DNA of 64,000 bases from Xiphophorus maculatus (taxonomy: Eukaryota > Chordata > Actinopteri > Cyprinodontiformes > Poeciliidae): contig NC_036460.1 in the NCBI RefSeq assembly GCF_002775205.1, forward strand, positions 18,132,402 to 18,196,401. The letters run 5' to 3'. Numbering within the stretch: the first letter of the stretch is position 1; every line of letters begins with the position of its first letter. Shown piece by piece: positions 920 through 47,100 of the stretch. A program made the translations under genes and the position numbers. Under the pieces are notes generated by a model. The model worked only from the letters and a program-made list of their open reading frames with translations. It did no database searches and had not been told where the DNA came from.

Positions 920-3825
920 TCAGTGAAGGCTCTTCTTGCTGCTTCTGCAGCGGGAGTTGCTCTGATGCCACAGCTTAGCCAGGACTCGCTCCTGCTGTGT
1001 CACAGCACTGAAGTCCATCGTTTTTAACTGCGGCAATGCAGAAATCACACGATTCCTGCACACAGAAAACTACACACTGAATATTGCACTTGTTTTTACT
1101 TTTTAAGAGTTTCTAGCTGTGCCAGGTCTGGAAGCAGTAAAGCTAATCTTGCAAGTGTTGGATTTTGTGTTGAAAATCAAATGTAAAAAAACTGGACTGT
1201 TTAAAAAGTGATCACTGTTTTAACCAGCAGACATAAAAAAGACATCGTAGTTTCTTAACCGTGAATTGTGTGTGTGTGTGTTTAAGTGCTGTTGCTGTGC
1301 AGACCAGGAAAGGAATTTGATCCGTGTTTAAGCACCTGTTTGCAATGTCGTGCACATACGTGCCTGCACAACATTCAGGTCTAGAGTAATCCCTCCATTT
1401 CTGCTCTGTCTGTATCGGTGAACCAAAAGCACGTACTTAATCTCTGTACATATGTGTATTGTATACATAGCAACAAATGACAACAGTAGATGACTGCATT
1501 TCTGCAGTCATATAAAAAAATTTTACAAGTAAAGGACCTCCCTGTAATATTGTCTCAACTCGGTAAGATGTGTGTTAGAGAAATGTCTCTACCTGTAAGT
1601 CTTGTTTGTCTCTATGGGGTTTCCATGTAGAGTGACGGAGTGAAGATGGGGGAGCACACCCAACCTGTCCACCTCTGACAGAGTAGAAATGTTGTTTCCA
1701 TGAAGATATAACACGCGGAGTCCATGCAACTCGCACAAAACCTGCAAAATATTTGTGCGCAAGCTTTATTAATGTGACAGCCTATGAATCACCGGGTCTT
1801 TTTGAGTCCATATGTTGTTATCAGAATAAGGATGAGAGTTACGTTTTTGGACATTTTCTCTCTTTTTTTTTTAAACTGCTTTAGCCACATCAGACTGATG
1901 GAGAGAATATAACAGACATTTTCAAGTATTGCATCAGATTGTTAATTGCGATTAGGCTTGGACTTTGACAGAGCCATTCCAATACGGTACATGAATATGC
2001 AGCTGTGCATTGATAAGTCACTCCATTGCAGCTCTGGCTGCCTGTTTATGGCTGTCACCAGTAGCAAGTCTTTGCAATCTCCATTGATTTTGTGTTTCCT
2101 CACATTAAAACTCATCAGCTTCCCTTTTCCTGCTCAAGACAGATGATACTGACACAGCTATGTTTCACTGTGGGGATTGGGTGTGCTAATTTTCCATAGA
2201 TGATAGCATTAAGGTTTAGCTTGTCTTATCTAAACACCTCCTTCCACGTGTGTGCTTGCCTTTGTCCTCTACATAGCTGTGGACTGAAAATATGACTTCT
2301 TATGGTTCTCTTTCAACAACTGCTTCTCTCTCCTCCCTCTTCCATAAAGGGTCAGATTTGGAAGGACTTATGAAATGCTCAGTGAAATGATGAAAGATTG
2401 GGATAATATTTTATGATCAAAGCCGATTTAACCTACAACTTTGTCCCTGACTTTCTGCTGTGTTTCTTTATCTTCATTCTCAAAACAATTGAATACATAG
2501 GATTTCATTTAGGTTTATCGGAGTAGCAAGGGACAAATTCACATGTATGCCATCAAAATTTATCCGATATTTTTGAAAAGAGTTTTGAAAACCTTGTATT
2601 AATTGAATTCTCGTTCACAATTATAATGCATCACTTTGTGTTGGTTTCACATATAAAGACACTATAATTCCAGAGAACTAATTAAATTTGCAGATGTAAA
2701 AAAGACAAAGGTGTATGAAGATTTTTGCAAGGCGTTGCTGCACTGGAAATGGTAAATTAAACTTACCTTATCTATATGTGAGAGTTTGTTGAAGGAGAGG
2801 TCCAGCCAGGCGAGACTTGAGGGTTCAGCCAGGAAGTGGCTCACTGTCTGATGGAGGTCACACAGGTCAATGATGCTGTTGTTACTGAGACGGAGGGAGC
2901 AGCTAAGATATTTACTTTCTGAATTTTTTTTTAAAGGTCGAAGACCGCTGTGGGGATTCTCTGTCCAAGCGTCTAAAACAGAAAATACAAGAAAGGTAGA
3001 GAATTTGAAATACTGGCTATTTATTTTTATTACATTGTCATACTATTTAGGTTATTAAAGCTTTTGTCATGCAAATATTATTTTGCTACAAAAAACAGTA
3101 GAAATCATAAACAGACATGTTCATTTTTTGTTATTGACTGCATCACTTGCGTGGGCAACCGTACTACCTAACCTATTCAAGGATTCAAGGATTTTTTATT
3201 GTCATGCCAGCTTGGATTTGTGGTAAAAAATTTGTACTCAGAAATTTTACAAAATTTTCAACACACACAAAAATAAAAAGATAAATAATTAAATAAAAAT
3301 AAATAAATGATGTAAATAAACCTATGTAATGCAACTGAAGGTATGTAACTCATCATAACCTCATTCAGCTTCCATCCTCTTCTGCCCCTTTGCAGACACA
3401 CTTATACCTATTTGATGCAGTCTAAGGACTGATTAAGACATATTTATTTATCATTGAGGGTACCACTGCAATTGTGTTATGTTCCAGAAACATGATGATA
3501 AATAATAATAATAAAAAAAATCATGTCTTACAAGTAATTGAAGAGATTGATTGTATAATAAACATTTCCATTATTTTCATTTAAGAAAACACATCGTCTT
3601 TTCATTTTTAAAAATATAACTCAGTCAAATGGCATTAAAGCCCTATAAGACCTGCTGTTCATTTTCTATTTTCATTTAAGATAAACAGAAATGAAACTCA
3701 GTAATCAAGCTGATCATCAGAAAGTACGAACATTTAGAGAAACCATGATGAAGATCAGAACCTGTCAATCTGGTGAGACTTCTGAAAGATAAATCCACCG
3801 GAGCTCCACACATAATCTTATCCAT
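920..3825 (-). CDS. lrrc51: Leucine-rich repeat-containing protein 51
   Basis: Four coding exons on the minus strand: 3762-3825, 2767-2972, 1593-1741 and 920-1055. They join in phase to give 184 aa (human LRRC51 is 192). The N-terminus has the family's xPVDLSFRSL segment, followed by SGLRPLKK. The repeats read LAWLDLSFNKLSHID and LRVLYLHGNNI with SVTLHGNPIE, ending in the capping segment ALPQLKTMDFSAVT. The ATG at 3825 is the first in frame and matches the family start. A 5' noncoding exon with a donor near 3956 is likely. LRRC51 is a small cytoplasmic LRR protein linked to cilia and, in mammals, transcribed with TOMT as the LRTOMT locus. No methyltransferase exons are visible here, so in this fish the two are separate. 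It is head-to-head with numa1, as in mammals. Confidence 0.9.
1930..2225. mobile_element. Decayed Tc1-type interspersed repeat in lrrc51 intron
   Basis: The segment carries the teleost Tc1-family landmarks CTTGGACTTTGACAGAGCC, GCATTGATAAGTCACTCC and a late TTTCACTGTGGGGATTGG. These occur in the same order as in the remnant at 45060-45430. No open transposase remains. Confidence 0.5.
3175..3345. repeat. Retroposon-like tail with A-rich low complexity
   Basis: A short tandem ATTCAAGGATTCAAGG followed by TTTTTTATTGTCATGCC, then an AAATAAATAAAT-rich run. This form is common at 3' ends of fish retroposons. No family was assigned. Confidence 0.35.
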
Positions 3826-8200: not shown

Positions 8201-11200
8201 TGAGGCCAAAAACAACTCGTAAGTGTGCCAATATGATTTTAATAAATGTCTAAATCTATCTAATCCAATTCAGTATAATCTGAAATAAGAGGTGAGAGAA
8301 GTTTATCTTGATGGATAAATGTATATAAAGGTAAGGAAAAAAACAAACTTGTGATTCATTTTCTTAGGTTACAATTGCGCCTTAACGAGCTGCTAAAGGA
8401 AAACAAAGATTTGAAGAGTACCTCTATTTATATGGAGCGGAAGGTGGATGAACTTACAGGAGAAAATGGTGATCTCTCCTTCCAGGTAATTATGAGTAAA
8501 CTCTACTTTCTGTTAAATTCATTAGCGCTTGACATGCTCTGTGTGTATGCCAGTGTAATGCCATTGCTTTTATTGTAAATACGGTTAGGCACAGCCACAT
8601 AGTACATATAGATTTTGTCTGTTTTAGCCCTTAAAACTAGAAAATTAAATATTTATTGTATGCCTAATTCTAAAAGATGTTTGAATTATTGTCAGATGAG
8701 AGCTTTGTGTTCCAAGTTGGCCGTCTTTGAAGCAGAAAACAGCCAGCTGACACAAGCTCAAGCGTCTGCGAAGGAGGAGTGGAGAAACAAAACAAGCCAT
8801 TTACAATCAGAACTCAACCAAGCAACCACACAAAAGGTGGGTAATAGAGTCACAATAAAACTGTGCAGCACCGTTTTTATTTTGCTGTTGCTATTTTTAA
8901 TTCTGGTTCCTTATTCTTCAGGAACTCTTGTATGACCAAGTTCAGATCCTCCAAGGAAAAATCTCCTGTTTAGAGGAAGAACTAAACAAAGCCAACAAAG
9001 AGGAAGTTGGGGAAAATATGGGTCCTATAATGGAGGTAAGCAAAGGTTTAGTTTTATTTTAGTATTTTCCAAGTCTGGATTAAGATTGGAAGAATAGAAT
9101 AAGAATATGGAAATATATTTGTATTCCAGACTTTATTCCCTCTCTGATTGTCTAACTTTAATTCTGTACATCCTTTCTTCTTTGTGTCTGTCCTTTCTTC
9201 CTGGCTTTCTCTTTTGAGCCCTTCTTTATTTGCTTTCTGTCTCTTTTCTACAGTTACCATATTTGAAAACTATTCTCTGCAGAAATGTCTGCCATAAATT
9301 TGTAGAGAACTTTTGGATATTTTATTTTAAGATGATGATAAAAGAAAAGGCATAATTATGTAAAGTGGGGTCTGAAAAAATTTGGGAGTGTTTTTGCTTT
9401 TTTTTTTTTTGGCAAAGTGTGCAGGGACCATGTGAGGGTAATAGTTTACAGTTTATAACCCCTGGCCCTATTGCTGGGCTATAGAAATAAACTTATCCCA
9501 TGATAGAAATGTTTATTAGGTGTCTCCTCTTCTTGTATCACCAGAGAGAAATGTTGGAGACTGAAATTATCAGTCTGAAGAATGAGCTTGAGGGCACACT
9601 TTGTTCCTTAAGAAAGGCAGAAGAACAGATTCATACCATAACTCAGAAGTTGGCTGAATGTGAGGAAGAAATAACTCGGTATAAAGAGCTACTTAAACAA
9701 CAAAAGGCACAAACTGAACAAATGATTCAAGCCAAGGATGAAATTGTGGAGAAGCTGAGAAAACATCTGGATGAACAGAGGACGGTTCTTGAACAAAAAA
9801 TCAGTGATCTGAAACTTCAGCTTGAGCATGTTGAGCACCAGAAAACTGAGCAGATGACCAAACTGCAACAACACATTGAAGCTTGTGAACAGGAAATAAC
9901 TACATTAAAAGACTTAAAGAGAGAGCATGAAGTTCTTCTACATCAGACTGATGTACAGATGAAGGATCTGGAGATGAGGCTGGTGGCTACTACCACTCTG
10001 TTAGCTGATAGAGACCAACAAATTTCCAACCTCAAAGAAGAAGTCAACTTGTTTGCAGAAGAAAGTAAAATAAGCAAAGATGAAATTCAGTCCAAACAAG
10101 ACACACTTGATAAATTACTAGAGGAAAAATCACATGAAGAAGAAATTCTTCACAATAAAATCCAAACCTTAACAGTTTGTACGGAAGGCCTTAATTCATC
10201 CCTGAAACGGGCTCAGGAAGAAATCCTTTTTAAACAAGATCTGCTGGCTAAAACCCAGCAAGAGAATGCTGAAGAAAAGAAAATACTTCAGCAACAGATT
10301 TTAAGCTGTCAGGAGGATGTGCAGAGGCTAAAAGGAGAGATTAGGCAAAAAACTGAGGAACTAGTCTCTCTCAAGAATGCTAGCACTCAACATTCTCGGT
10401 CTCTTCAGCAAGAGATCAACAGTCTAAAAGTCCAAATAGAAAGTCTTAATCATGCTTTGAGAAAAGCTGAGGAAGTAGTTCAGACCCAGCAGGGCTTGCT
10501 TACAAAACTGCAAGAAGAAACGTCTCGCCAAACGGAGCTTCTGCAGAAACAACTGTCTGCTTCTGAAGAGGAGGTAAACAACCTAAACAAGTCAATCCAA
10601 GCTAAGGAAGATCGGATGCGGCTGATGGAAATCGAAAGTTTGGAACAGGCTAATGGTTTACGTCAAGAGATAAATGATTTGAAGTCTCAGGTTGAATGTC
10701 TTGATTCCTCACTGAAAGCAGCTGAAGAGAACTTGCAATGCAAGGAAAATCAGTTTGCAGAACAGAAACAGCAGAACACTCAGCAAATAGAAACCCTTCA
10801 AATGCAGATTAATGTATCTCAAGGTGAGATAAAGAAGTTAAAAGGAGAGATTGAGGCTAAAGAGGAGCAGATGGTTCAGCTAAAGACGGAGATGTCTACA
10901 AAATCAAAGTCACTGCAGCAGGAGATTGACACTCTAAGTGAGCAGTTGAAAAGCATCTCTAGTTCTTTACAGATTGCTGAAAACCAAATTAAAGTCAAGG
11001 AAGACCTCTTAGCCAAACAAGAACAGGAAAGTTCTTTGCAGATTGAAGAATTAAGAATAAGCAAAACTGTTCTTGAGGATGATTTGAATCAGCTGATGCA
11101 AGATATTAAATCTAAAGAGGATGAAGTCCAAACATTGAAGGCTGATCACTGCAAGGAGTCAGAGACCCTAAACAGCGAGTTGCAAACTCTAAAGAATCAG

Positions 11201-14200
11201 ATAGAATGTTTGAATCAATCTCTCCAGTCTGCAACAGACCAAGTCTTGGCTAAAGAAAACCTGCTAGCTCAGAAGGACACTGAAATTTCCCAGCAAAACG
11301 ATTCACTTCAAAACTTGAGGGCTGCTTCTGAAGAAGAAACATCAAGGCTGAGGGAGGAAATCCAGGATAAAGAGAAGGAGATGTGTTTCTTAAAAAATCA
11401 AAGTTCAGAGCAAACGGAGTCATTTCATAATGAGATAAATGATTTAAAGTCCCAAGTTGAATGTCTTATATCGTCATTGAGAGCAGCTGAGGAGAACTTG
11501 CAGTCGAAAGAGAATCAGTTTTCAGAGCAACAACAACAGAGCACTTGTCAAATAGAAACTCTGAAGATGCAGATGAATGCATGTCGAGATGAGGTAAAAA
11601 AGCTAAAAGCAGAAATTGATGCTAAGGAGGAGCAGATGGTTCAGCTGAAGACCGAAACATCAAATGAATCAAAGACCCTGGAGCAGGAGATTGACGCTCT
11701 AAATGAACATATAAAAAGCATCTCTAGTTCTCTGGAGACTGCTGAAAATCAAGTTAAAGCTAGGGAAGATCTCTTAGCAAAGCAAAAACAGGAAAGTTCT
11801 TTGCAGATCGAAGAATTAAGAAAACACAGAACAGTTCTTGAGCATGAGGTGAATCAATTGAAGCAAGACATTCAAATCAAAGTGGATGAAGTCAAAATGC
11901 TGAAAGATGATCACTGCAAGGAGTCGGGTGTCTTAAACAATGAGATCCAAACTCTGAAAGATCAAGTCCAATGTTTGAATGAATCCCTCAAGTCTACGAC
12001 AGACCAACTGCTGGCTAAAGAGAAGCTGTTGGTTCAGAAGGAAATGGAAATTTCTCAGCAGAAGGATTCACATCAGAACATCATGGCCACTTCTGAAGAA
12101 GAGAAGCAAAGACTTAAGGAAGTGATCCAGGCCAACGAGGAACAGATGAGACTCTTAAAAAGTCATAATGCTGAACAGACAAATGTTTTACATCAGGAGA
12201 TAAATGATTTGAAGTCTCAGGTTGAATGTCTTAGTTCCTCATTGAGGGCAGCTGAAGAGAACGTGCAGTCGAAGGAAAATGAGCTTGCTGAACAGCAGCA
12301 ACAGACCACTCAGCAAATCAAAACCCTTCAAATACAGATGAAAGCATCTCGAGATGAGCTAAAGAAGCTGAAAGTAGAGGTTGATGCTAAAGAGGAGCAG
12401 GTGGTTCAGCTAAAGACAGAGACGTCTACAAAATCAGAGTCACTGCAGCAGGAGATTGACGCTTTAAATGAGCAGATAAAAAACATCTCTAGTTCTCTGG
12501 AGATTGCTGAAAACCAAATTAAAGCCAAGGAAGATCTCTTAGCCAAACAAGAACAGGAAAGTTCTTTACAGATTGAAGAATTGAGAAAACACAGAACAGT
12601 TCTTGAGGAGGAGGTGAATCATCTGAAGCAAAATATTAAATCTAAAGAGGATGAAGTCCAAACATTGAAAACTGATCACTGGAAGGAGTCGGAGGACTTA
12701 AACATTAAGATGCAAGCTCTAAAGAATCAGATAGAATGTTTGAATGAATCTCTACAGTCTGCAACATACCAGGTCTTGGCTAAAGAAAACCTGCTAGCTC
12801 AGAAAGACACTGAAATTTCCCAGCAGAACGATTCACTTCAAAACTTGAGGGCTGCTTCTGAAGAAGAAACATCAAGGCTGAGGGAAGAGATCCAAGCTAA
12901 ACAAGAGCAACTTGTCAACCTTAAAGAAGAAGGTGCCACACAGTCAGATATGCTTCAGCAGGAAATTAAAAGTTTGCAAACACAACTGGATGATATGGCC
13001 AAAACAAAGAAAATCAGTGAAGAAGAGCTGCAGACTCAGAAGGTGGTTCTTCAGCAACAACTGTCGGCTTTTGAGGAAGAACTGAGGATGCTGAGAAGTG
13101 AGAGTCAATCCAAGGAAGAACAGATGGAGCTGCTGAAGGCTGAAAACGCAAAGCAGTTGAACTCGCTAAATCAAGAGATCGAAAGTTTAAACAAACAGGT
13201 GGAAACTCTCAGTGCCTTGATTAGAAAGACGGAAGAAGAAATCCACTCCCGTGAAGATCTTTTGGCTAAGCAACAAAAAGAAAACGCAGAACAGAGTCAA
13301 GAACTTGAGAGCTTACATGAGAATGTCCAACAGTTAAATAAACAGCTAGAACAACTTCACTCGCATGAAGAGGAGATTGAAAAATTAAAAGGATCCCAGG
13401 CTGAGAAAGAAAATGACCTCCTTGAAGCTGAAAGGAAGCTTCAGGATCTGCAGGCAGAGTTGTCAGAAGCAAGGATGCTCATTGCTGACAAAGATCAAAA
13501 TCTTAACACCTTGAATCAGGAGGTTGTGCTTCAAGTTAGTTTGTTGCAAACAGCAAAAGAAGAGGCTGAGGCTAGTGAGAAAATCGTGGCTGAGTTAAAG
13601 CTGGAGAACTCCAAGCAGAAAGATGTTCTTCAAGATGAGATACAGGAGCTTAAAGGAGAGTTGGAAACAATTTCTCAAAGACTTTGTGCCAAAGAGCAGA
13701 AATTACTTGAAACTCAGCAGGAGTCTGTAGAACTGGTGAACAATCTCCAGCAGCAGCTTCTCTTGGTAAAGGCAGAGCTTGACAACCAAAAAGAGGCCCT
13801 ATCTGCAAGTCTTCAAACAAAAGACGCTGCTCAGGCCTTACAGTTGACCACGCTGAAGGAAAAGGAGGTTCTTTTACAAGAAAACGAAGCACTCATGTCC
13901 AAGATAATTCAAGTAGAGAGGGACCAAAGAGCTCTGGAGAAACGGGTTGAAGATGCAGTCATTGAGAAAGACAGGCTTGCTCAAGTCAATCAGGCCATGG
14001 AGAGGAAAAATGTTGCCTCTTGTAAAGTGGAGGCTGATTTGCAAAAAGAGCTTGAAATTCTGAAAATGGCAAAAGAGCAACTTTTGAAGCGGAGAGAAAA
14101 AGCAGAAGAACTTGAGCTCATCAATGGAGAGCTGAAGCAACAACTTGCAGCAAAAACAGAGGCTGCTGAACACTACAAGGCTCAGGTTGGTTCAATGTAA

Positions 14201-17200: not shown

Positions 17201-20186
17201 CAAAGAATTCCAAGCAGTCATCATCAACATTATCTGTTCACCAGATTTCACCTGAGGTGGGTGTGCAGCAGAATGTGCAGTAATGTTTTCTCAATTAATG
17301 TTTGAGCATAGTATTATTTAAAGTCAGGGCTAGTATTCTGCAAGTTTTAGATGTTTCCCTGAACCAACACACCTGAATCAAATTAATAGTTTATTAGTGG
17401 GGTTCTGTAGAGCTCGAATCTGCTTGTATAACATGAAAATAAAATTAAATGCTATTGGGTACATACATAGGTGCCGCGAACAGGATTTTCTTGTTTAATT
17501 TCGGATTTATTTTGAACTCTGACCTGGAATTTCTGATCTTGACTGTTTTTTATCCTGACTGATTATAAAACAAATCTTGCAATATTTATTTTGAAGGATA
17601 AATCTTGGAAATATGCGATGCAGTTTTTATTTGATGGATGATTGTTTTGAATCAAACAGGAAATGTTGGAATAACCCGGTTGATCCAATTTATGCATCAA
17701 ACTGAATGCCCCTGATCTTTGCTTGATTTTTAATTTTTTTAAAAATTAGATTGAAATCCTTTGTATTGTGTTGTAAATTAAAAGAAACCCTGCAGAAGTG
17801 AAAATTTTTGCATTTAGATCTCTGGATGAATGACCGAAATACAGATTTATCTATTAACATTGTCTTTAACCTATTAGTGTTAACCTATAAGATACTGTCT
17901 CTATCCTTGACAATTTTGAGTGTACTGTGCAAAATTTAACTGAACTATGGAAAAATATTGTTTTTTTTTTTTTTTGTTAAAACCAAAAATTTATGTTTCT
18001 TTATTTTTAATCTGAAGAAAAAGACAAGATCTAGCTGTTTCCCTCGTCCACTCACTCCCAAGAACAAGAATGTGAGCAGTGGACCATCCAGTGCTAATCT
18101 TCACCCCATCCTTAGTCCTGTGAGTAGAAACGTGAGTGGAACTGTCATGTTTCCTATTGTTATAGAGTATGGTGACTGTTATCTTTAAATTCATTTCAGG
18201 CCGATCGTCGGCAGTCTATGATGTTCACGATTGACAACACCCCAAAGAGCAACAACTACCTAAAGAAAGGGCTGAACAAACTGCGCAATTCCGCTCGAAA
18301 ATCTCCTGGAAAAGTTCTGAGAAAGTCACCGTCCCACAAAAATGCTCGAAAGGGTCTGGAAAACTCCCTTTCAGTAAATTCTCAAGCCTCAGTGGGACGA
18401 TCTGCGAAAGCTGGCAGCTTTAAGGCCCCACAGGTTACAGCTCAGGCACAGAGAGGATCTCAAGCCACTAGCAGGTCTGCAAAGTCTCCTGGACTCACTG
18501 CTAGTGCTCGCAAGGTAAACATGCACAAACACAATGCATAAAACCACCATCTGTTCAGACAGCTGGTGTTGCAGTTGTTTCAGCTAGAAACCTGTTAATT
18601 GTCCTTACAACTTTATGTTCTGGAATGTGCAGGGCCTTGATTGTGTTTCGTATCATTTTACATGTTTGAGCAAAAAAAAAAAAGTATATATACGGTATTT
18701 ATTCCCTGAACTTGACAGTTCTCCTGACTTGTCCATTTTTCCTCATCTGTACAGTCACTGTACTGTAGTCCATGACTACAGTACAGTCATGGACGAAGCC
18801 GTGTATTTTTTTAATATCTCAGATACGCCTGTTAGATCTGATTTATTACATAAGGTGTGGATGAAGACGCAGCTGATTTGCAAATGTGTGCTGTGAAGAA
18901 TAATTCTGTTTTAGAGGCTGAATAATTTTGAGACAATCACATATTGACATTTATAAAGTAGATGCTTCTTACTTTAACTAATGAGAAAATCACATCTACT
19001 GCAGCAACAAGTACAGCAAGAACTTTAACTCAGATTTGATGTCTTGTCTAACTGGTTTACGAGCTGCATTCCTCTCAAACAAGCTTTCCCTGCTGTTTTG
19101 AAACGGTTTTACTTTCCAGCAAAAGCAAAACAATCCACTTTATTCTTTGTAATTTATGCATGTTGTATTATATTCACTGAGTTGATGATTTACAGTAACT
19201 ACTGAAACAAAGTACCATAGAGAAAGTTTTGTCACTAATTTTCAGTAATTGCAAATTTAAAACTTTTTTCAGAAGCAAGACTCTGTAAAGGAAGAGAAGG
19301 TTTTCTGAGACCCAAGAAGGTTCAAATATATATTTAGTTTTTCTCATGGGTGGCTCTCACACTGGGCTTAGAGGTGATACTACCTAATAGGAACACGGGG
19401 TCCACACTTCTCTTACTGTTATTTTACTAACACAGGGTTTCTGCAAGACCTTAAGTTTTTTCTTAATATGCAGCCTTAAAAATGTTTATATACCCTATAT
19501 GAAATATCAAAAAGTTTAACATTTGAAAATGTGTTGTTTTTTTTAAAGAGTTGCACTGTTTTGTTAAAGTGTTGTGTTGTGAATTGTAGTTCTTGTTGAG
19601 GAATTTATTTATTTTACAAAACTTCATGATGCATAATACAAGAATAAATGAACCCTTTTGAAATTAATTCATACTTTTACACTTTTGCTTTTTCTGCAAA
19701 ACTTCAAAGTTTGTCTGCTCTTGAACCTTACTTGCAGTATAGTTAGTTTACTTATGTAATGTCATTTTTGATATACTCTCTCTTTTGTCGTTTTGGGAAT
19801 ATATTTGTTTAAATAAAGGGGTTTTGGTAATTGGCTGAAATCTGCCAATCACTGTCCAAGACGATAGTTGACAAAGTTTGGTGGTCAAGATGTAATGAAA
19901 TACTTGGGTCACATGCTGCAAAACACCAATTCAATTTAACAAACATTAGTTTACCTTGTTCTTAACAAAGTTAAATATATTTTCAATATTCAGATAGATT
20001 TTTTCTTTTAAATTATTACTATTGTGAAAGTTAAAGTCTGGCTGAAACTTGCAGGAACTCTGTTGTATAGGTGTTTGAATTGTAGTAACATAATGTATTA
20101 ATTTTATGGAAATTTTCTTCTTTAGTAAAAACAAAAACTTTTTTTCTCTCCTTTCTCCACAGGTTATGAGAAGGATGAAGGTTTAA
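5278..20186 (+). CDS. numa1: Nuclear mitotic apparatus protein 1 (NuMA)
   Basis: Twenty-three coding exons in continuous phase: 5278-5313, 5401-5486, 6479-6552, 7034-7122, 7212-7286, 7395-7488, 7572-7737, 7867-8006, 8107-8218, 8368-8485, 8696-8836, 8922-9035, 9545-14185, 14294-14503, 14593-14786, 15670-15807, 16184-16298, 16387-16582, 16721-16857, 16972-17256, 18018-18119, 18200-18514 and 20163-20186. The product is about 2533 aa, against about 2115 in human. Residues 1-150 form the NuMA hook-type domain that binds dynein adaptors. The rod is a long coiled coil. The tail keeps ESLETLYFTPI, RRRTTQVINITMSK, the LGN-binding-like DETFYSLHSARSQ (about 2190-2200), GLPGYRR, IAELQARNKACLPHLK, SCFPRPLTP (a Cdk1-type TP at about 2400) and DRRQSMMFTIDNTPK. 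NuMA organises spindle poles and cortical dynein. A noncoding exon ends at 5022 and another begins at 5244. Confidence 0.95.
9545..14185 (+). other. numa1: Giant rod exon of numa1
   Basis: A single exon of 4641 bp (1547 codons, phase 0 at both ends) encodes most of the coiled-coil rod. Acceptor CACCAG precedes 9545 and donor GTTGGT follows 14185. A large central rod exon is also known in mammalian NUMA1. Here it is enlarged by the internal repeats at 10160-12964. The composition is very rich in E, Q, K and L. The start and end of the exon, outside the repeats, resemble ordinary NuMA rod (for example AKTEAAEHYKAQ at the end). Confidence 0.9.
10160..12964 (+). repeat. numa1: Eleven 255-bp (85-aa) coding repeats in numa1
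   Basis: Units begin at 10160, 10415, 10670, 10925, 11180, 11435, 11690, 11945, 12200, 12455 and 12710, each exactly 255 bp. A shortened unit of 71 codons starts at 12965. The shared pattern is I-x-x-L-x-x-Q-(I/V)-x-x-L-x-x-S-L, then a (K/R)E-x-LLA-like block, a S-x-E-E-x-LK block, a KEEQM-like block and S-LQQE. Units 3-5, 6-8 and 9-11 form three 765-bp blocks of high mutual similarity, each block being types A, B and C. The phase of 85 residues (12 heptads plus 1) implies one skip residue per unit. Confidence 0.9.
17312..17415. mobile_element. Fragment of hAT-like teleost MITE
   Basis: Contains TTTTAGATGTTTCCCTG then CCAACACACCTGAATCAAAT and GGTTCTGTAGAGCT in a numa1 intron. The same family recurs at 30757-30940 and at 33510-33600. 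This is one arm only. Confidence 0.45.
18757..18787. repeat. Perfect 13-bp hairpin in numa1 intron
   Basis: Left arm ACTGTACTGTAGT and right arm ACTACAGTACAGT with a 5-base loop. It is unrelated in sequence to the other hairpins in the window. Confidence 0.7.
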
Positions 20187-24600: not shown

Positions 24601-27600
24601 ATGATGTGTGAGTGTGGTGGAGCTCAAAACTGGGAGTAAAGCAGATTTCTGTGTTCCTGTAGTTGTGTCATTGGAAGTAGTTTTCACATATTTGGAAGAA
24701 TCATTGTACAGCGTGTGCTTCCTGCTACTTTTCCATCAACTGCTTATTCGTCTGATTTTGCTTTTCATGTCCAGGCCAGGATAAAGCCCTGTCAAAGACA
24801 ATAAGCACGCTTGAAAGATTGGAGAAGACAGAGGAGATTAATGAACTGCAGACAAAGTGTGCGAAAGGTGAGACAAAGCCGAAGCATTTTGAAGAAAGAC
24901 CACAGTACACAAATCGTATTGTAAGCAGCTCTTAAAAAAACAGATTTATCCCATTCATAACTGAACATCTAGTACTTTATTAAATGAAGCGCATCTTCGA
25001 AATTGGCTTAATTTAACTCTTTATTCAGGATTCCGTTCATTTTTTCCTTTTTCTTTCTCCTCCAACAGCTATATTTCGCTTTTACCTGAAAGAGTATTTA
25101 TTTCGTAAAAGTCAAATCACTCACGAGGGGGTGCCTCAACCCGGAAAGCAGCAGTTTCTGAATGCCGTGTATGTGGCGCCTCAGATTTCCATCCGTGGCT
25201 TTGGAGGAGTTGACCCATCTCATGAGATCTTGGCACAAACCCCGAAACCTATCCAAGTCCCCAGTGAGGACTCGTTAGTTGCCTTGAACAATCTGTTCCG
25301 ACTGCAGAAAGATGACGGCTCACCGGTGAAGACGGTCGTAACCACGGGGATCCCAGGAGTCGGGATGTCTGTCTCTGTGTCCAAGTTCTGTCTAGACTGG
25401 TCAGAGGAAAAGGCCAACAGGGTGAGAACTGACACAAGCTTTCTTTTAGAAATCAGTAATCTGGGTTTTGATGCGATAAACCAGTGGTTCCCAAAGTGTG
25501 TGGAAAAGTGTTTCACTGTTTGTAGTGTGCTTTGTTGCAACCTGAATTTCGACATGAACTGTTGTGGCCAGAGCCACCACTGTACTAGAAGTAGTACAGT
25601 TTTTATTGTACTTTAGATTCTGAGACTTAAAAGTTTGACATAAAGAAGATTGCATTCTTTGTATTTACACAGAAATGACAGAAATCATAGCGTGTTTATC
25701 CAAAATGCACATTCAGTTAAAGTGTTGCTCAGGTGACGATATGAAGGCACTCAACGTTCGCTTTTCACTTAAAAGCAATCAAAAACACAACTCAACTACT
25801 CCAAAACACTCATGCAGACAAGTTGGGATTATGAGCAACTTGCAGAGCTGGTAGCTACACAGCGTGCGGTGGTTGGCGTGATACTCTAGCTTCACATGGC
25901 CGTTGGGATTTGACCTGCACTTTATCTCCGACCAGACATAAAAAACGCTTATCCCTCAGGATCGATATGTCGGAAAATTTAGTAATTTTGAAACCATAAC
26001 TTTTTCATATCATGTTATACCTTGAAACCAGTAACCAGCCCTTGCCTTGGGCCAATATAACATATTTATTACATTCGAATGTGATTTTATTTAAGGTCTT
26101 CTTCTTGAAGAGTGCATAACTGAGAGTGTCCCGTTTCTTCTTGACTCAGAAAAGTAGTCAAGAGGTTCAAGGTAACTTGTGGGGAGCTGCCGAGAACCAC
26201 AGCATGGTTGAATCTGTTGTCAGGGCAACTGTTAGTGGTGCACTCAATGAATCTGAGTTTTACGAAAGAATAGAGACAAAAGAGCCATTATTGCCCTACT
26301 TTAATTTTTTCACAACTAGACAGTGTCACATTTTTCTATTTCTGTGATGAACTGGTCTAGTCATCTATTAAACACATATTAATTACCTATTTTAGGTTTG
26401 CACCAGGACCAGAGTAACTAATTTCATTCCACCTCATGTTTTTAACATGTTTGAAACGAAAATAAATTCCTTGAATCCTTAAACATGCAGCTTTTATTTG
26501 AATATCTCATCAACTTTCCTCTTATTTAATTTTTTTCCCATTTCTGCCTGTTTTTCTTCATTCGTTACTACAGCAGTGTGCACCATTTGGTAACATTGTC
26601 ATTAATGTTTAATTTGTCATTATTGTCATTGAAATTTGATATTAATTTTTCACACTACAGATGTAGTTTATTGCAGTTTTGTTTGTTTGCTTGTATATTT
26701 TTATATTTTGGAAATTAAAGCTTTTCATTCCTTTTCGTTTCTGCTCAGGATATTCAGTACCTCTTGAAGCTTTCGTTCCGGGACCTGCGGCATTTCCGGC
26801 AGAAAGAATATGAGGAGGAAGGCATATCAATGCAAGAGATATTGGAGTATTGCCACGCTCCTATAAAGGGTCTGAACATACTGCAAGAAGAGAACGCTAA
26901 ATATGTCATCATAATGGACTGTTATGATTGCTACGAGGCGCCTCTGGACTTTCAGGTATCCCCTCTGCACACATTCGGGAGACTCTTCATCTAAAAATGT
27001 GTTCCTTATTCATAAATTCAAAGTTTTAACTATTTCTATTACACAGAGTGATATATTTCAAGAGTTCTTTTCTGTGAACTAATTATTATTGATTTGAGCA
27101 AATGGAAAAGCAAAATTTATGATTCTCAGAATATTTAATAGGATTGTTATAAAAAAGAAGTTGTCGATCAGTGTCTGTCCACAGGACAGCCGTCACGTCA
27201 GCAGTCTTGCTCATGACTATGAGTCATAAAATTGCCGTTCTAAATAGATTCCCTCTGTAGTGAATCTGTAATTTTCACTTTCAGAATTGAATCACTTAAA
27301 TAAATTAACGTTTTGCTGATTAACTGACATGGATCTGTTGACATGCTGGCCTGCATTTGGAATAAAGAAGTAAATAAGTAAATAAATCTAGGAAAATAAA
27401 AACAACCTCAGTAATAAGAAAATGTCTTGTTGAAAAAACAAGCTGTTTTTTTTAAAGGTTTTATGTTTTGTTCTTATATTCAGAAAGCTCCGGAGATTAC
27501 TGATAACAACACCAAAACACACATAGATACGCTGATTGTTAACCTCATACGAGGAAATTTGCTTCCGAATGCTCGACTCTGGATCCTGGGAAGACGAGCA

Positions 27601-32306: not shown

Positions 32307-35300
32307 TTAGTTTTCAGGCATCACAGTCGTATCTGTAAAGGAAAGACATGGTTATTTTATTTTTTTATGTATTTTTGTTTTGTTTTTTTTAGTCAAATCT
32401 TGGTGTCCATTGTTTATATCAGGCTCCTCTTTAAAACATATTTGCAATCTACATAAATGTCATGTCAAACTGGACTCTACTGTGAACAGTTCACCTTGGC
32501 AGATGAAGGGTAATTCGTCATGGCAGTTGGCATCAAGCAGCTGGATGTTGTTTGACTGATTACTCCAGACAATCTTTCCACAGTGATTGTTGAGACCATT
32601 AGCCGGAAAACTGCTGATCCACTCAGGCTGTTCAGCTTTGGCTCCCGATGTCCACTGCCACTTTATGTTGGTGCCAAAAATGGACCGCTCGAGGCCGACC
32701 CAGACCCCTTTCTGCAATTCTGCCTTGTTTACCAAGATGTTCTTTAGCTCGTCCCAAACTGTCTGGTTAGTTATTTCGACCAGAGAGAAACTCAGTTGAT
32801 CGCAGTAATTCAAGGCTTCAATCCAACTTTTTGTTTCATTAAACAACTGCAGAGATGAACCTTAAACCAAAAAAACTCATATTCATTACTTTTGTACTGA
32901 AGCAGATAAGAAGATTGTTCTAGAAACACTTTCATACAGCAACCATGGGCTCTTTGTAGCTAATTTGCAAATATAACAAAAACGCCTGTGGAAAAGCACC
33001 TGTAGCCCCACCCGCAAATATAGGTAAATATACAGGCAAAACCAAAATTAGGCAAACAAACAAGAGGATACAACAAAACCAGTAAAGAAAATATAATAAT
33101 AAAATCTGTAGGACAGTGTAATCGTTTTGTGCTAAAGTACTTACTTGTTTCATCAAAAGTACTTTCAGTTTCAGACAGTTCACAGGTAGAATCCTTAATT
33201 TCTATTTTAACTGGTGAATCAGTTAAATTAAAGAATAACTCTTTTCTGTAATAGAAAAATATAGTTATCACAAACAATATTGGACATTATACATAAATAA
33301 ATGTGTGTGTAAGTGTGTGCTTGGGAAAATAACTTGAACAAATCGTTTCAGTAAAAATATTTCTAAAGTGCCTGTTGACTTACACCAGATGTCATTGACA
33401 AATCAAGTATTTCACAAATGCAGAAATGTGACACAAAGCCCATAAATTAGATTAGATGTAATAACAGTAAGCAACACAGGAAATGGATGTAAAGAAGGTT
33501 TTCATCCTCTGGATTTGGGTGTGTTGGAGCAGGGATAACTCCAAAAGTTGCAAGATAGTGGCACTTGAGGACTGAAGCTGCTGACCCCTGGCATACACAC
33601 ATGATTAGACAAGGAATGGCCCTGCACATCTTCCCAAAATAAAATACAGACATTGACTTCTGGATGTGGGTACATCACAGGTTAGAGCACTTGCTGCAAG
33701 GCAATCTCATATTACCAAAAGAAAGATGAAACCACAAATGTCCCATGACATTATTGATAAAAATCTGAATCTGAAATAAGGTTAGATTGTTTTCATACGC
33801 TAATCAACCCAAGCTCAGCCAAGAAAACCTTTACTTAGTCAATAACCCGACTGAAATATGGAAAGAAGAAAAGGTCATTTTCCTTATTCCTTATTTCCTT
33901 ATTCCTTACTGTTGCATAATTTCCCCCCAGTCTTTTAGATTTGAAAATGGCTTGTGAGGAAGAATGTGTCAGATTGCGTTCCTAGTTTCTGTGTCACCCT
34001 TATCAATAAGCATGATTTCAGTAAGCATGTTCAGTAGTTATTCTGAAAGCTATTCAACTTAAAATTTAGAATGTAATTTGGATCAATATCATCTCTGAGA
34101 GTATTATGTAGATTGTTACAAACATTTGCTATAAATTAAATGTGAGTAGCCCAATTAGAAGCATATTTTCTGACATTAACTTGTTCAATGCTTATTTCCC
34201 TTATGCATATGTTTAAAAATAATCACCACATGACATAATTACCTCTCTTTACAGTCCTTGCAAAAATTTGGAGCAGAGCATGAATGTTTTTGGCAGCATA
34301 TTTTGCACATTTTGTAAGTGTTTCCTAGAGCATAAAAACAAACATCTGAGTTATACAATATGAAAATATAAAGAATTCAAAAACATGTTCCTTTAGGCAC
34401 ATAATTCAGAGTTTAGTTTACAACATTTATAATCATGATAAAAACTAAGGCATGTAAAATATATCACCTTTTACCACAACTTCAAGGCACGGGTAGGTAC
34501 CGGCATTTGGCCAAGAACAATCCCTTGGTAAAGCTCTTAATACCAGTTTGAAGTTATTTTTAAAACGCGGACCACATGCAACTGTCAAAACGTCTTTGCC
34601 ATTAATTTTGTTGTCCTTGATTATCCATGCCTTTGGGCAACTTTGAATTGTGATTTCCTTTTTACAGGATGTTGCTGTAGCAGAGAGTGGCTGGATGGTT
34701 GCTAAAACACAGGGAAATAATGTGAGGGGTTATATATTCCATATTTTCATGGATCCACCATATAAAATGACAGAGTACAACAGTTTGGTGTTACGACTTT
34801 CTGAATATAATAACCAAAGGTTAAAGATTAAAGCTGGGTGTCATATTAAAACCCACCTGTTTAGGATAGTATTTGAAACCTAATCAATTACAAATTTATT
34901 GATGGAACTTGACTTAATGTCGTGTTTTGATTGTTGATTCTATCTTGCATTGTGTTTCTGTGTTTGATATGATGTAAAGCACTTTGAAATGCCTTGCTGC
35001 TGAAATGTGCTATACAAATAAAATTTGATTGATTGATTGATTGATTGATTTGGAAATTAAACAAGGAGACTTTACTGGTTTCAAAATACTTGAAATAGAT
35101 GGCTGGATGTGGACTTATTTCCAACAAAATCTTGATAAGCTTTATTATGTTTTTAAATGCTAAATTATATAAACAAGGAAGAAAACATAATGTGTGACTT
35201 TCAACTTGTAAAAATTTCATAGCACTAAAGTATCTGACAATTACAGTCCTCTGCTGCTAAGGTCTATTGGGTAGCTTGCTAAATGCCAAACTGCTTGATT

Positions 35301-38136: not shown

Positions 38137-41100
38137 TCATGCAGGTGGTGTCAGAGTCATGGCAGCAGCATGAACTGTGAATGCTGCTATGCTGATTTGC
38201 CGCTTAACTTCCCGCCAGGCCTTCTCTGGGTCAGCTGAGTTCTCAATGTCAAACAGTGCGTCGTATATCCCAGGAAAAGACTCCCCTGCATACTTGTTAT
38301 GGCTGCTGGGAGCGAAAATCACATGCCTGAAAAACAGAGTAGAGATGGGGGAGAAAAGACAGCACTGTGTTACAGGAGAGGAGATATGAGACAATATATT
38401 TGTGTATTCCTTGAAAACATGCTGAAATTAAACAGGAGAAAAGCTGGACATCCTCTGTAAAGCTCTAAAGCAAAATAAAGTAGTATGGCCTTGGATGAAT
38501 TCATGAAAGGCTAAGCATCAAACTAAAGAAAACATTAAAGAAATATGTATGATGTGAGGGTTTTCTTTGGATGCAGCAACAGTTAAAATTACTTAATAGT
38601 TGAGTGTAGCACAAGAATTATATAAGACAATTACTGAAATAACTGAATAAATCAATTTTGCACCTGAAAAGGCTGGTAAGTTGATCTACTCAGTGTTTTT
38701 TAAGTGTATAAAATTAGAATTTTGGAGCCAAAGTTTGTTGTAGATCAGATGGATGTATAGGAACATCTACATGGAAATAGGTGAAATTAAAATAATAATA
38801 TGGAAAAATATAAATGTGTTAGATTTAAAATTTTCCACTATGACGTTGGAAAAATTGAGTTTTAAAGCCCTCTCTGTAAATGTCAAACATTTTGTCATAC
38901 TATCAGCGTCCTGATTTTCATTCCTACTGACAGACACACTCATCTAAAACGTTATCTGGCAGATTAAACCTGGGCTCTTCTCTGCTCAGAAAAATGTGGA
39001 TACAAGGAATAATGGAGCAAACATTCATATAAAGAGCCAAAACAGTTACCATGTACAGTGGTGATAAGTTGTCAGAGTAATTAATATTTGTATTTATTCT
39101 GTAGAGCTGTTATCAAAGTATGAAGAGCACTAACCTGTAAAAGGGTCTGCCTGGCAAGCCAAGAGGATCGATGAAAGCTCTCTCAAGGTACATGAGTTGG
39201 TCATTCATGATTCGCACCTGTAAAGGACTAAAACAAAATACCACTGCACTGGAAATCACTGTTGAAAGGAACAACAGTTTCTATGTTTGCACAAATTAGA
39301 GTATTAAAGCAGTTACTTATTGTTATTTTCTGTTTAACCACAGATGTAAAAGGTTCAAGCTCTTACTCCTCTATGTTGAGAGTCTGCAGACGCTCATGGA
39401 AACCTTTGGCTGCATTCGTAAAGTTTTCCACTGCAGAAAACAGAGACTCTAGAAAAAAAACAAAAAACCTTAGAAAATACTTAACTCCAGCTGCAAAAAT
39501 ACGTCACCAAGCAGTAATGCCTAAACAGCAGTAGTGCCTAAACAGTATCAACAGGTAAAGGTGAACATGAGCTCACCGAATGACACTTTGTACGTCTCCA
39601 TTAGTTCTGTGTGTGTCTGTGCCAGATGTGCGATGCTGTCTGCGTACTTCCTCAGGGAGTCTGCGTACTCATTAGCATCGAGAGGAAGCACCTGGGAATC
39701 TGCCAACAGGAAGATGAGACCTCCTCTCACCTGAGCCACCGCCCGGAGCCTCCTGAAGGTCGGGTCGTAAAACTTCTCCACTATCTCAAAGGTTTCATAC
39801 ACACTGTGATAGACAGGGTAGCTACTGTATCGCTCTGTTTTCTGAATGGACACACAAACATACAGAGAACAGAACATTTCTGTTAGTTCTTAATATAATT
39901 ACCTCCTACAAGACTCAGCTCAGAGCCAAACTGTAGTACAAGGCTTTTCTTAAATATTACTAACTATTAGAAATTTGCTAACTTTTTAAAGTTGGCATGT
40001 CAAAGAGATTTTTCAGTGCAACATCAGCAGAGTAAGAAAGGATTAGAAAGCGCTACGTCAGTCAAACAAAGCACACCTCTACAGACTCACACTTTATAAA
40101 TTTAAAATATCCAATGTGAAGGAATATTATTGAATATGTTGGACATGTGTGCAGATCCTGCACTCACCTTGTTCTTGGTGTATCTGGCTCTGCCTGCCGT
40201 GATTCCCAGCCGGATAAAATAGGCCTCAAAATCACTGCCTGACCCAAGTTTACTGATCCTAAATCAAACCAGGAAGGAAGACATACTTAGTGATTTTTGG
40301 ATTTACATATATTTCCTTCCAAATAATTAGCTAAGAATAGACAACATATTTTAAATGGTTGCCTATTTTTCATCTGAGAAGTTATCACATAAATTTAATA
40401 GTTTGCAAAAAGGCATCACATTAACTTCTTGTCTTTTATAATCACACTTCATTGTTTTTCAGTTGATCTTAATGTAGATTACATTATTTTTTCTCCATCT
40501 GGAAGCATTCAAAACACAGACTTTTACAACAGTCTTTGGTGCAATAACAGCTGTGAAGACTTATGAGAGCTGGTTAAAAATTAATCAAATCACATGTCAG
40601 CGACTCTCGGAAAACAAGAAGCAAAATCTTCTTATCTGGCTAAAAAAGAACTCACGAATTGGTTAAAAGTACTTTGAAAAAATACAAAATAACAAAAAAA
40701 GGGATATATGAGAAAAGTCAAACACAAAAAGTATCATTGTTACTACTGACCAGGCTAACATGGTCAGGTAGTGATGCCTGCATCATCATTTCATTTTGTC
40801 AAAGAGACTGGGTGAGGCGATCCGAAGGAAATGGAGAAAATTGAAATCTGCTGTTTTAAGAAGTGCTCAGTACCTGAGAACTTCGAATCAAAACTCTAAA
40901 CCATATAGTTCACAAAACACTGGTGATATTAAAAAACAAAAACTTAAAGTCTATGATCTGAATTGATTTTGCCACAGCCTAAGTCTTTATACAACCTTAA
41001 GCATAAACATTTCTGCAAATAATATTAGAGAAACATATAAAATCCACATGCAGAGGCCAACACAAATATAGGAGCATTTGTTTTTACCTTAATTGAACCA

Positions 41101-44100: not shown

Positions 44101-47100
44101 AATTAAATAAGTACCGGGCTCCAAAGCTCCTCTGATCTTTCCAATGACGTTGTAGATCCTGGTTACCTGGTTGTTGCTGTAGATGTTCATTCGGACCTTA
44201 CTGCAACAAAACAGGATCCAAACAAAGATGAGAAATAAACACCAAAAGGAGCCAATGTCAAATTTAGCTCAACATTAAATGCCTGCTGCAAGGAAAACAT
44301 TTATTCTAGTTTCTAAGTGTGTTTGCTGTGCAGCATGCTGCTTCCATGCAGGGTTATGTGTGAAAACGAATGTGTGTCACAGACAAGAGGCACAAGAGGT
44401 AACATTGTGCTTCCACTGGCTGCTTGCCACCAAAGGGTCACAGGTTTGCAACAGAGCAACAAGAAACAAAGAGGGCAGAGTGAGGCACCTAATAAATCGA
44501 AACAGAGTGAAGACCGAACTGAAGTGGCAGACGGACAGTTTAACAGAAGAGATGTTGATTTTAACAAATGAGGGAGTGTGAGTATCATCTTATTGCTGAA
44601 TGATAACTTCAGTATCAGGAACACTTACTGACTCTTGAAGTCTTCCGTGAAGCCCGGTCCAGTCTTATAGGAGACATTCAGAGCTCCTTTCCAGTTGGCG
44701 GGTGGAACCTGTCCCCCCATGTTTCTGTTTCAAATACATCGTAAATATTTTACATAAAAAATTAAAGACTACTATACCTACAGCAAATATGCAAACAGTA
44801 CTTTGCATATTAGATGATGATTTGGACACTTATCATCGTCACCTAGTAGAGAAAATATGTACTTTAAGAGATGTATTGCATCGTGGAAGCCGATCGGATG
44901 AACTGGAATCTTAGGAAGTCCGACTCCTTCCTCCGGGTTGAGCCTGTAGGTGTATTCTGGACGAAAACACACAAGTGTGACAAGCTGTCCTATCTACTTT
45001 TCTTTGCTAATACATCCGTAACTTTCTCTCATTTTGTCAGTTTAAATTGATAGGAAAGTTTTTATGATTTTCCATTCTTCAGCTCATTTAGGTTCCTTTG
45101 ACTAAGCCATTTGAACACATGGATATGCTTTGATCTAAACTCTTTTTCTGCAGCTCTGCCTGTGTTCAGGCTAGCTCTCTTGCTAAAAGATAAACCTCAG
45201 CTATAACCTCAAGTCCTCTCCAAGCTTTCTACCCAGGATTCCTTTTTTAAGGTTTAATCCAGATTCCTATTGATAATGACCTGATCCCCACAGCATAATG
45301 TGGCCACCCCCATGTTTTATGGTGAAGGTGTTGTGTTCAGGTTCAGGTTTATGCTTTGTACTTTTCAACCACTTAAATAATTTTGTTTGCCGTTCAGAAA
45401 ACACAAATAGGTCACATCTGAACAGACTGTGTATTCTACAGGTGAGCTGTAGAATGACATGCCTGTTATTCCACAACATAACAAGTGTTTTGGAATAACA
45501 GCACTTGTTGTGCTGTGCTGTTATTCCACTGGTGTGTGGCGAGTTTGAAATTCCTGTGGCTTTCTCTGTGACTGTGACAAACCATGAAAAAGTTCAAGGG
45601 ACATCAACACTTTTGCTAAACATTTTATGCACTCATGCAGGCTATAGAAACCTTTTTAGCACACCTTTAGCCGGGTATCCTGGTGTGAGGGGATCTCCTG
45701 CTCCATTCAGGTTGAGAACATTTCCTCTCTGAGCTCCTCCGCCAGGCAGGTTCCAGCCGTCAGGGTACGGCTGTACAAAGCCACGATTAGTGACAGAAGT
45801 TGTCTTCTATCTATTTCCCACCACTCACAATGTCCCAGATGGTAAATAACAAGGGATCGAGAGAATGAATACTACATTTCTTACTGTTTTTACCAGGAAT
45901 GTGTTTTTTTTTAACTTTATATTAGGTTACCTTGACTCCTGCAGCCCAATAATCAACAGGATCAGAGAACATAATGATTCCCTTTGCTCCTGCTGACATG
46001 GCATTCTTCACCTTTGAGACAGAATGAGCACAAGAGAAAGTGCTTATTAATGTTAGTCATGTCATGGGAACTGACAAGGCAAATTAAATGTTAGGAGATA
46101 AAACTGTAATGTAAGTCCGTCGAGTTCAGATCACATCTTTAAATACCTTATTGCCTCTGAATATTTTCCCATATCTGACTATTACAATCTTCCCTGTCAC
46201 ACTGATGTTCATCTCTCTCTCTAACTGGAAAAAGTCCTCTGTTCGGCCGTAGTTCACGTACACCAAATCTCCCTAAAGGGACATGGAATAAAGAGGAACC
46301 ATATTTTGCTGCACTGCTTTCTGTTTCATCGTGAATGTGTGGATCTGAATGCACCTCTGGATGTCCCTTGGGAGAGTAAGCACTGTATGGAGGCACAATG
46401 TTGGAGACGTCCTCATAGCCGTGTGGAACTGGTTCAGCCAAGCTGGTGTTAAAAACCTGACAGAGCGAAGACATAGTGAGACCAGAATGACGTTAAGCTG
46501 AATAATTGAATCTGTTGCCAGCTTTTTGAAGTTCCTTGTGCTTCATATTATCATTATTTTTTTGATTTGACACGAAACAATGATATTTGACACAACCAAC
46601 GTGTAAAGAATACGACACAATCAGTTACACAGTAATACAATCTGATGCAACATATTGTGTGCTTTTAACTCATTTTGACTTTGATGCAATTACAATCTAA
46701 TATAATATGACACAATATGATACAAAGCACTACACACTACATAATACGTTACACAATTTCATGCAATATATTGCAGCATGGTACAATATAATAATAAACA
46801 GGGCTGCAGTTAAATATTATCTTAGTTGTCAACTTTTCTGATGATTAGTAATCGCAGTCGAGTAATCAGATAAAAACAACTCCAGATATCTTATTCTAGA
46901 CACTGAGTTTAGTTCATACAATGCCAAAAATACAAATAAATAATTAATTTACTTTTCAAAATAAGAAAATATAAATTTAATTGCCTAAAATGCAATGACA
47001 TAGCATTCCTTCAGTGTACGCTTGATCATTTGTAGAAAAGGATGCATTTGCAGCTAAAAATACTTCTAATAACATATGTAGATTATATATACAGACAAAA

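Follow-up and report, generated by a model that had tools for sequence, protein, structure and literature searches.

How can the rod of a long coiled-coil protein grow without breaking its coil? The question is raised by numa1, the gene for nuclear mitotic apparatus protein 1 (NuMA), in the fish Xiphophorus maculatus, where the coding sequence of the rod is visibly repetitive. The window analyzed here is a stretch of 64,000 nucleotides (NCBI RefSeq assembly GCF_002775205.1, contig NC_036460.1, forward-strand positions 18,132,402 to 18,196,401), and all positions given below are counted from its first letter. Our findings make it likely that the rod of this fish NuMA, which is encoded mostly by one giant exon, grew by nested in-frame duplication of units that each close the coiled-coil register, and that the outcome is a longer continuous spacer.

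The repeat itself lies at 10160-12964 on the forward strand and consists of eleven consecutive units of exactly 255 bp (85 codons), open and gapless, that together encode 935 residues. Unit comparison and a tree place unit 1 (10160..10414) and unit 2 (10415..10669) outside the three unit types A, B and C; the same evidence, together with block identity, arranges the others into three 765-bp blocks, namely block 1 (units 3-5, or A1, B1 and C1, at 10670..11434), block 2 (units 6-8, A2, B2 and C2, at 11435..12199) and block 3 (units 9-11, A3, B3 and C3, at 12200..12964), whose near-match to block 1 ends at about 12885. A preliminary description of this DNA, made from its letters, had proposed eleven units in register and A-B-C blocks from the third unit onward, and both proposals are borne out. 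Self-comparison of the DNA over 9500-13500 gives its best matches at lags of 765 (57%), 1530 (53%) and 510, 255 and 1020 bp (44% each) against a mean of 28%, so that the off-diagonals expected at 255 and 765 bp are among the strongest. At frame-keeping lags, DNA identity is 0.42 (lag 255) and 0.53 (lag 765), and the maximum in 200 codon shuffles is 0.353. The protein behaves likewise: across the exon, mean BLOSUM scores of 1.53 (lag 255) and 0.88 (lag 85) exceed all of 300 shuffles that kept the local 7-residue phase, which reached at most 0.18 over lags 20-599. Units of like type have 50-65 of their 85 residues in common and 69-87% DNA identity, and unlike units have 23-38 residues in common and 44-57% identity. 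The tree gathers the units of each type into a group of their own (support 99/98, 100/100 and 98/98 for A, B and C) and gives units 1 and 2 long branches; consistent with the block boundary, identity at lag 765 climbs from about 60% to 80% near 10660. Adjacent units are thus homologous above chance, and the array is a tandem repeat. Tandem Repeats Finder listed nothing for it, presumably because the units are too diverged, and the 765-bp period exceeds the longest that the program considers. No report of an internal repeat in NuMA was found among the titles and abstract openings listed from the open-licence PMC literature.

By its sequence, the gene that carries the array is numa1 of a fish. 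Our model runs on the forward strand from 5278 to a stop at 18541, with 22 coding exons and 2531 amino acids; the exons were selected visually and it is uncertain where the last one ends, while all 21 introns have GT-AG ends and the reading frame is open throughout. The 2533 amino acids of the preliminary description were therefore close, if not exact. Exon 13 (9545..14185; 4641 bp, 1547 codons), within an open frame of 1569 codons, contains the entire array. The N-terminal 330 residues match Pfam HOOK_N_NuMA (PF21670; E 6e-50). A PDB search with the first 151 recovers chains 6qja (E 4.8e-07) and 9hhl (E 1.3e-05), both named nuclear mitotic apparatus protein 1, and these matches uphold the earlier assignment to NuMA. 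A long central coiled coil is present as well, in that a heptad pattern was learned and decoded over residues 212-2045 with a model of our own. The other searches returned little: the C-terminal part, where an LGN-binding region would be expected, matched the NuMA chain of 6hc2 only weakly (E 0.032, domain 0.23), the C-terminal 499 residues had no match in Pfam, one C-terminal exon had none in the PDB at E 1, and exon 13 had none in the PDB at E 0.001 and five in Pfam that all fell under their cut-offs.

What would allow such units to follow one another in a coiled coil is suggested by the register. Heptad emissions were learned by expectation-maximization, from the whole rod or from the part outside the array, and the register was then decoded at four settings. 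With whole-rod training, every one of the 22 breaks that the strictest setting places in the array is a 4-residue stutter, located at unit positions 36-43 or 73-81, and the other three settings make 21 of 23 breaks stutters and split the second stutter of unit 2; with training outside the array, stutters account for 19 of 21, 21 of 22, 20 of 23 and 21 of 25 breaks. When fixed templates are compared under the outside-array emissions, the top score is 201.6 nats for two stutters and 27.0 for one skip, all eleven units prefer two stutters, and a search of all closing two-break templates selects 4+4 at positions 38 and 73. Isoleucine, leucine, valine or methionine occupies 166 of 264 a and d positions under the two-stutter register and 137 of 264 under a single skip. 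From template and decoding together, the 85-residue unit is best read, on its sequence, as nine heptads plus two hendecads, with 24 core layers, and so as a heptad-hendecad coil with recurrent 4-residue stutters and not as heptads with one extra residue per repeat. Lamins and similar heptad-hendecad coiled coils also have 4-residue stutters within a heptad coil; theirs are isolated, unlike the two per unit that recur here over eleven units. By arithmetic, a coil of two-stutter units would have a mean supercoil pitch of 325, 243 or 177 Å for a helix of 3.60, 3.62 or 3.65 residues per turn, against 187, 157 or 126 Å for pure heptads. An AlphaFold2 model of one 255-residue block is a single helix over residues 2-253 (mean pLDDT 93.1). 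The unit may itself be double, with homologous halves of 39 and 46 residues bearing one stutter each: the circular correlation of hydrophobic positions is 0.59 at both lags, and p for homology is 0.027 over the full lag-39 alignment, 0.060 over positions 8-39, 0.30 at lag 46 and 0.0024 over a stretch (15-39) picked after looking, which is suggestive only and leaves the idea unproven.

The array appears to have grown in steps of different age. Between unlike units synonymous sites are saturated (mean pS 0.84), and the 85-residue level is therefore old. Between blocks (phase 10595), dS is 0.96 for blocks 1 and 2, 0.74 for 2 and 3, and 0.31 for 1 and 3, so the outer blocks are the closest, clearly so in the A and C units. 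Aligned over 765 sites, the three blocks are identical at 551 and all different at 17, and the odd one out is block 2 at 111 sites, block 1 at 54 and block 3 at 32. Simple copying of neighbors does not predict that the outer blocks are closest, whereas gene conversion, or copying of two blocks followed by loss, would. Blocks 1 and 3 also have an exact 59-bp tract in common (11297-11355 and 12827-12885), just after which identity falls from 96% to 40%, and its end could be a gene-conversion or duplication breakpoint. The origin that these sequences suggest as likely is nested in-frame tandem duplication inside the giant exon: an 85-residue unit would first have been copied repeatedly, in frame; a three-unit A-B-C block would then have become three blocks; and renewed copying or gene conversion would later have brought the outer two closer to each other in sequence. 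Growth within one exon in steps of 255 and 765 bp keeps the frame. Throughout, the protein is constrained, with dN/dS of 0.20-0.42 between blocks and 0.14-0.51 for the nine pairs of like units, and the eleven units contain no insertion or deletion.

Related units also extend beyond 10160-12964, the limits that the preliminary description had set. A profile of the eleven units was run over the flanks, with the maximum score in 1000 shuffles of the flanks as null. Upstream it finds a diverged 85-residue unit at 9566..9820 (residues 423-507; gapless score 1.1 bits, reached in 0.3% of shuffles; hmmsearch 18.5 bits over residues 425-499), and downstream two more at 13178..13432 (residues 1627-1711; 11.1 bits, reached in none of the 1000 shuffles; hmmsearch 29.4 bits) and 13502..13756 (residues 1735-1819; 3.6 bits, reached in 0.1%; hmmsearch 13.0 bits). 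Directly after the array lies a short unit of 71 residues (12965..13177; hmmsearch 25.3 bits, profile positions 23-85) with two stutters in the decoded register; it is 85 minus 14 residues, two heptads short, and this exception in length is still register-neutral. A gapless match of 10.1 bits at residue 1542 runs into the array at its end, fits the 71-residue unit when this is read 14 residues too soon, and did not enter the shuffle test. The next-best gapless position in the flanks is unconvincing, its score being reached in 12.8% of shuffles, and hmmsearch gives two weaker partial matches upstream (8.5 and 9.3 bits). The profile-found units on the forward strand mean that related units fill more of the giant exon than the main array does.

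The array is not, however, simply an added piece. Human NuMA belongs to the same family by its Hook domain and likewise has a long coil between dynein-binding and C-terminal parts. Our rod spans residues 212-2045 (1834 residues, limits set by hand), or by arithmetic about 272 nm at 0.1485 nm per residue; the human rod (residues 213-1699, 1487 residues) would measure about 221 nm by the same arithmetic, and an average of about 207 nm has been measured, according to the text of PMC8047419 available to us. With 935 residues in the array and a rod only about 350 residues longer than the human one, the earlier statement that the array adds some 935 residues does not hold. Its claim that human NuMA has no such period agrees with a z of 0.9 for the lag-85 signal in the human rod, in a provisional human sequence confirmed against PDB chain 9hhl over residues 209-681 only (the same at 473 of 473 positions). 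In this provisional rod sequence the unit profile scores at best -21.3 without gaps, less than at the best out-of-phase array position (-10.2), hmmsearch with the unit profile gives a best domain of 5.5 bits (i-Evalue 0.0033) among the matches listed, and 8-13 of 15-23 breaks across the four settings are stutters, unevenly spaced. Zebrafish NuMA, in Table 1 of PMC5082667, has 2446 residues and a coil of 1774 (212-1985), 287 longer than the human coil. The protein here exceeds it in total by exactly 85 residues (2531 - 2446), or one unit, which may be chance, and the two coils differ by about 60 (1834 vs 1774). The parts of PMC5082667 at hand call NuMA length almost invariant among vertebrates, and hence critical; the same table gives 2115 residues for human and 2446 for zebrafish.

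As a mechanism, we propose that each unit, with stutters recurring at intervals of about 39 and 46 residues, would close the register of the coil, and because of this closure whole units could be added without breaking it. The eleven units keep one length, and changes in length that are not register-neutral would have been removed by selection. The resulting rod would be a continuous and evenly underwound spacer that, fully coiled, would reach about 270 nm, where the same arithmetic gives about 220 nm for human, and would separate the N-terminus, which binds dynein, from the C-terminus, which anchors the protein and binds microtubules; this would make a longer rod at the spindle pole, as the preliminary description had also supposed.

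The repeat could in principle have arisen from something other than duplication. Coiled coils match themselves at many lags, and the eleven-unit profile does match six unrelated coiled-coil PDB chains (E 0.0004-0.006), all of viral fusion proteins, which we read as common heptad bias. Mere heptad bias and low-complexity composition nevertheless stand next to no chance of explaining the main array and are refuted for it by the controls: both kinds of shuffle stay far under the observed scores, units read in phase reach 41.1 to 81.0 bits against a profile that excludes their own type, where the best out-of-phase array position scores -10.2, and like units reach 87% DNA identity. That the array was assessed from an assembly, and that blocks 1 and 3 share an exact tract, would fit an assembly artefact. 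We consider this highly improbable on the assembled sequence, since like units are only 69-87% identical in DNA; moreover, the blocks are non-identical at 214 of 765 aligned sites, the frame is open for 1569 codons, and the exon turned up a single time in an assembly of 101 contigs and 704,300,149 bases, in a search that scored 30 of 579 first-look candidates. The preliminary description had further taken each unit as twelve heptads plus one skip residue, with one local change of pitch per unit. It is true that 85 leaves 1 on division by 7, a net register shift of one residue per unit, and unit 4 is decoded with a single one-residue skip (position 53) at three of four settings under outside-array training; the template scores, the preference of every unit and the occupancy of a and d positions given above run the other way, and we regard the single skip as very unlikely.

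A more substantial alternative accepts the same origin and register and holds that length has no role of its own, with chance copies kept and any coil-forming sequence tolerated. Human NuMA functions without the array, NuMA sequence is described in the available part of PMC5082667 as enormously divergent among vertebrates, and a dN/dS below 1, rising in the youngest pairs, may reflect coil-forming constraint alone. Against this stand the absence of indels in eleven units whose synonymous sites, between unlike units, are saturated, and the sole length exception found adjoining the array, which is exactly two heptads, though a single case could be chance. We therefore think that a rod of neutral length is quite possible and still lean toward the register-closing spacer. 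Several observations weigh against the latter and should be acknowledged. It is based on a single sequence, numa1 of this one fish, and the functional effect of the array is one that we infer from sequence. B units show little of the closeness of the outer blocks (dS 0.30 for 1-3 vs 0.37 for 2-3), and the tree leaves the order within A and within B unsettled. dN/dS peaks in the closest pairs (0.37-0.51, point estimates), and this ratio cannot tell constraint on length from constraint on coil-forming residues. As to register, outside-array training leaves 2 of 21, 1 of 22, 3 of 23 and 4 of 25 array breaks that are not stutters and locates some stutters elsewhere within the unit; unit 4, besides its decoded skip, favors two stutters only narrowly (17.8 vs 13.8), and the comparison of templates gives two stutters an extra free position over one skip. 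The provisional human rod sequence scores at lag 39 too (z 2.9, outscored by lags 21, 35, 42, 49 and 28), and a spacing of 39 is therefore not specific to the array. The AlphaFold2 model, finally, is of a monomer and used three rows; its pTM is 0.36, and the last 20 residues are modeled with low confidence.

If the register-closing spacer is the right interpretation, what might its length do? In the sections of PMC6037482 available, the central coil of human NuMA is dispensable for pole focusing and required for cortical pulling, with residues 706-1699 needed for proper pulling force; excerpts of other studies indicate that the spacing of the nuclear NuMA lattice changes with coil length (PMC8047419) and that the coil contributes to NuMA accumulation at the poles (PMC12669695). 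Yeast Num1 offers a parallel. This cortical dynein anchor carries, between its dynein-binding and membrane-binding ends, a middle with thirteen 64-residue tandem repeats, and deleting repeats reduces spindle penetration, as the accessible portion of PMC6297085 reports. The same portion states that Num1 and NuMA have no sequence homology and does not describe the 64-residue repeats as a coiled coil, unlike the 85-residue coil units here; the likeness would thus be one of function and layout, not of descent. A bolder proposal, which we find rather unlikely, is that fish NuMA is a naturally length-variable spacer and a vertebrate parallel to Num1; its unit number would differ among species or individuals in whole steps of 85 residues and so tune cortical dynein reach or nuclear NuMA spacing. 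Units that each close the register would be natural length variants, since whole units could be removed without disturbing the coil. The idea of NuMA as a spacer would thereby become directly testable, and the rod could serve as a natural test case for the role of rod length in cell division.

The remainder of the window holds several further open reading frames (ORFs). Upstream of numa1, a leucine-rich-repeat ORF at 2665-3042 (reverse strand) is weak (E 0.0078, under the Pfam cut-off). Downstream, an ORF at 25017-25613 (forward strand) has a FISNA domain (fish-specific NACHT-associated in Pfam; E 2.1e-07) and is probably part of an NLR gene; the domain also indicates a fish source. On the reverse strand lie a C-type lectin domain ORF at 32463-32861 (E 3.6e-11) and, at 38140-38427, a transferrin-receptor-like dimerization domain ORF (E 3.3e-16), which we take to be perhaps an exon of a glutamate carboxypeptidase-type gene. 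A further reverse-strand ORF, at 45270-45593, presumably resembles the end of a Tc1-like transposase, going by a motif.

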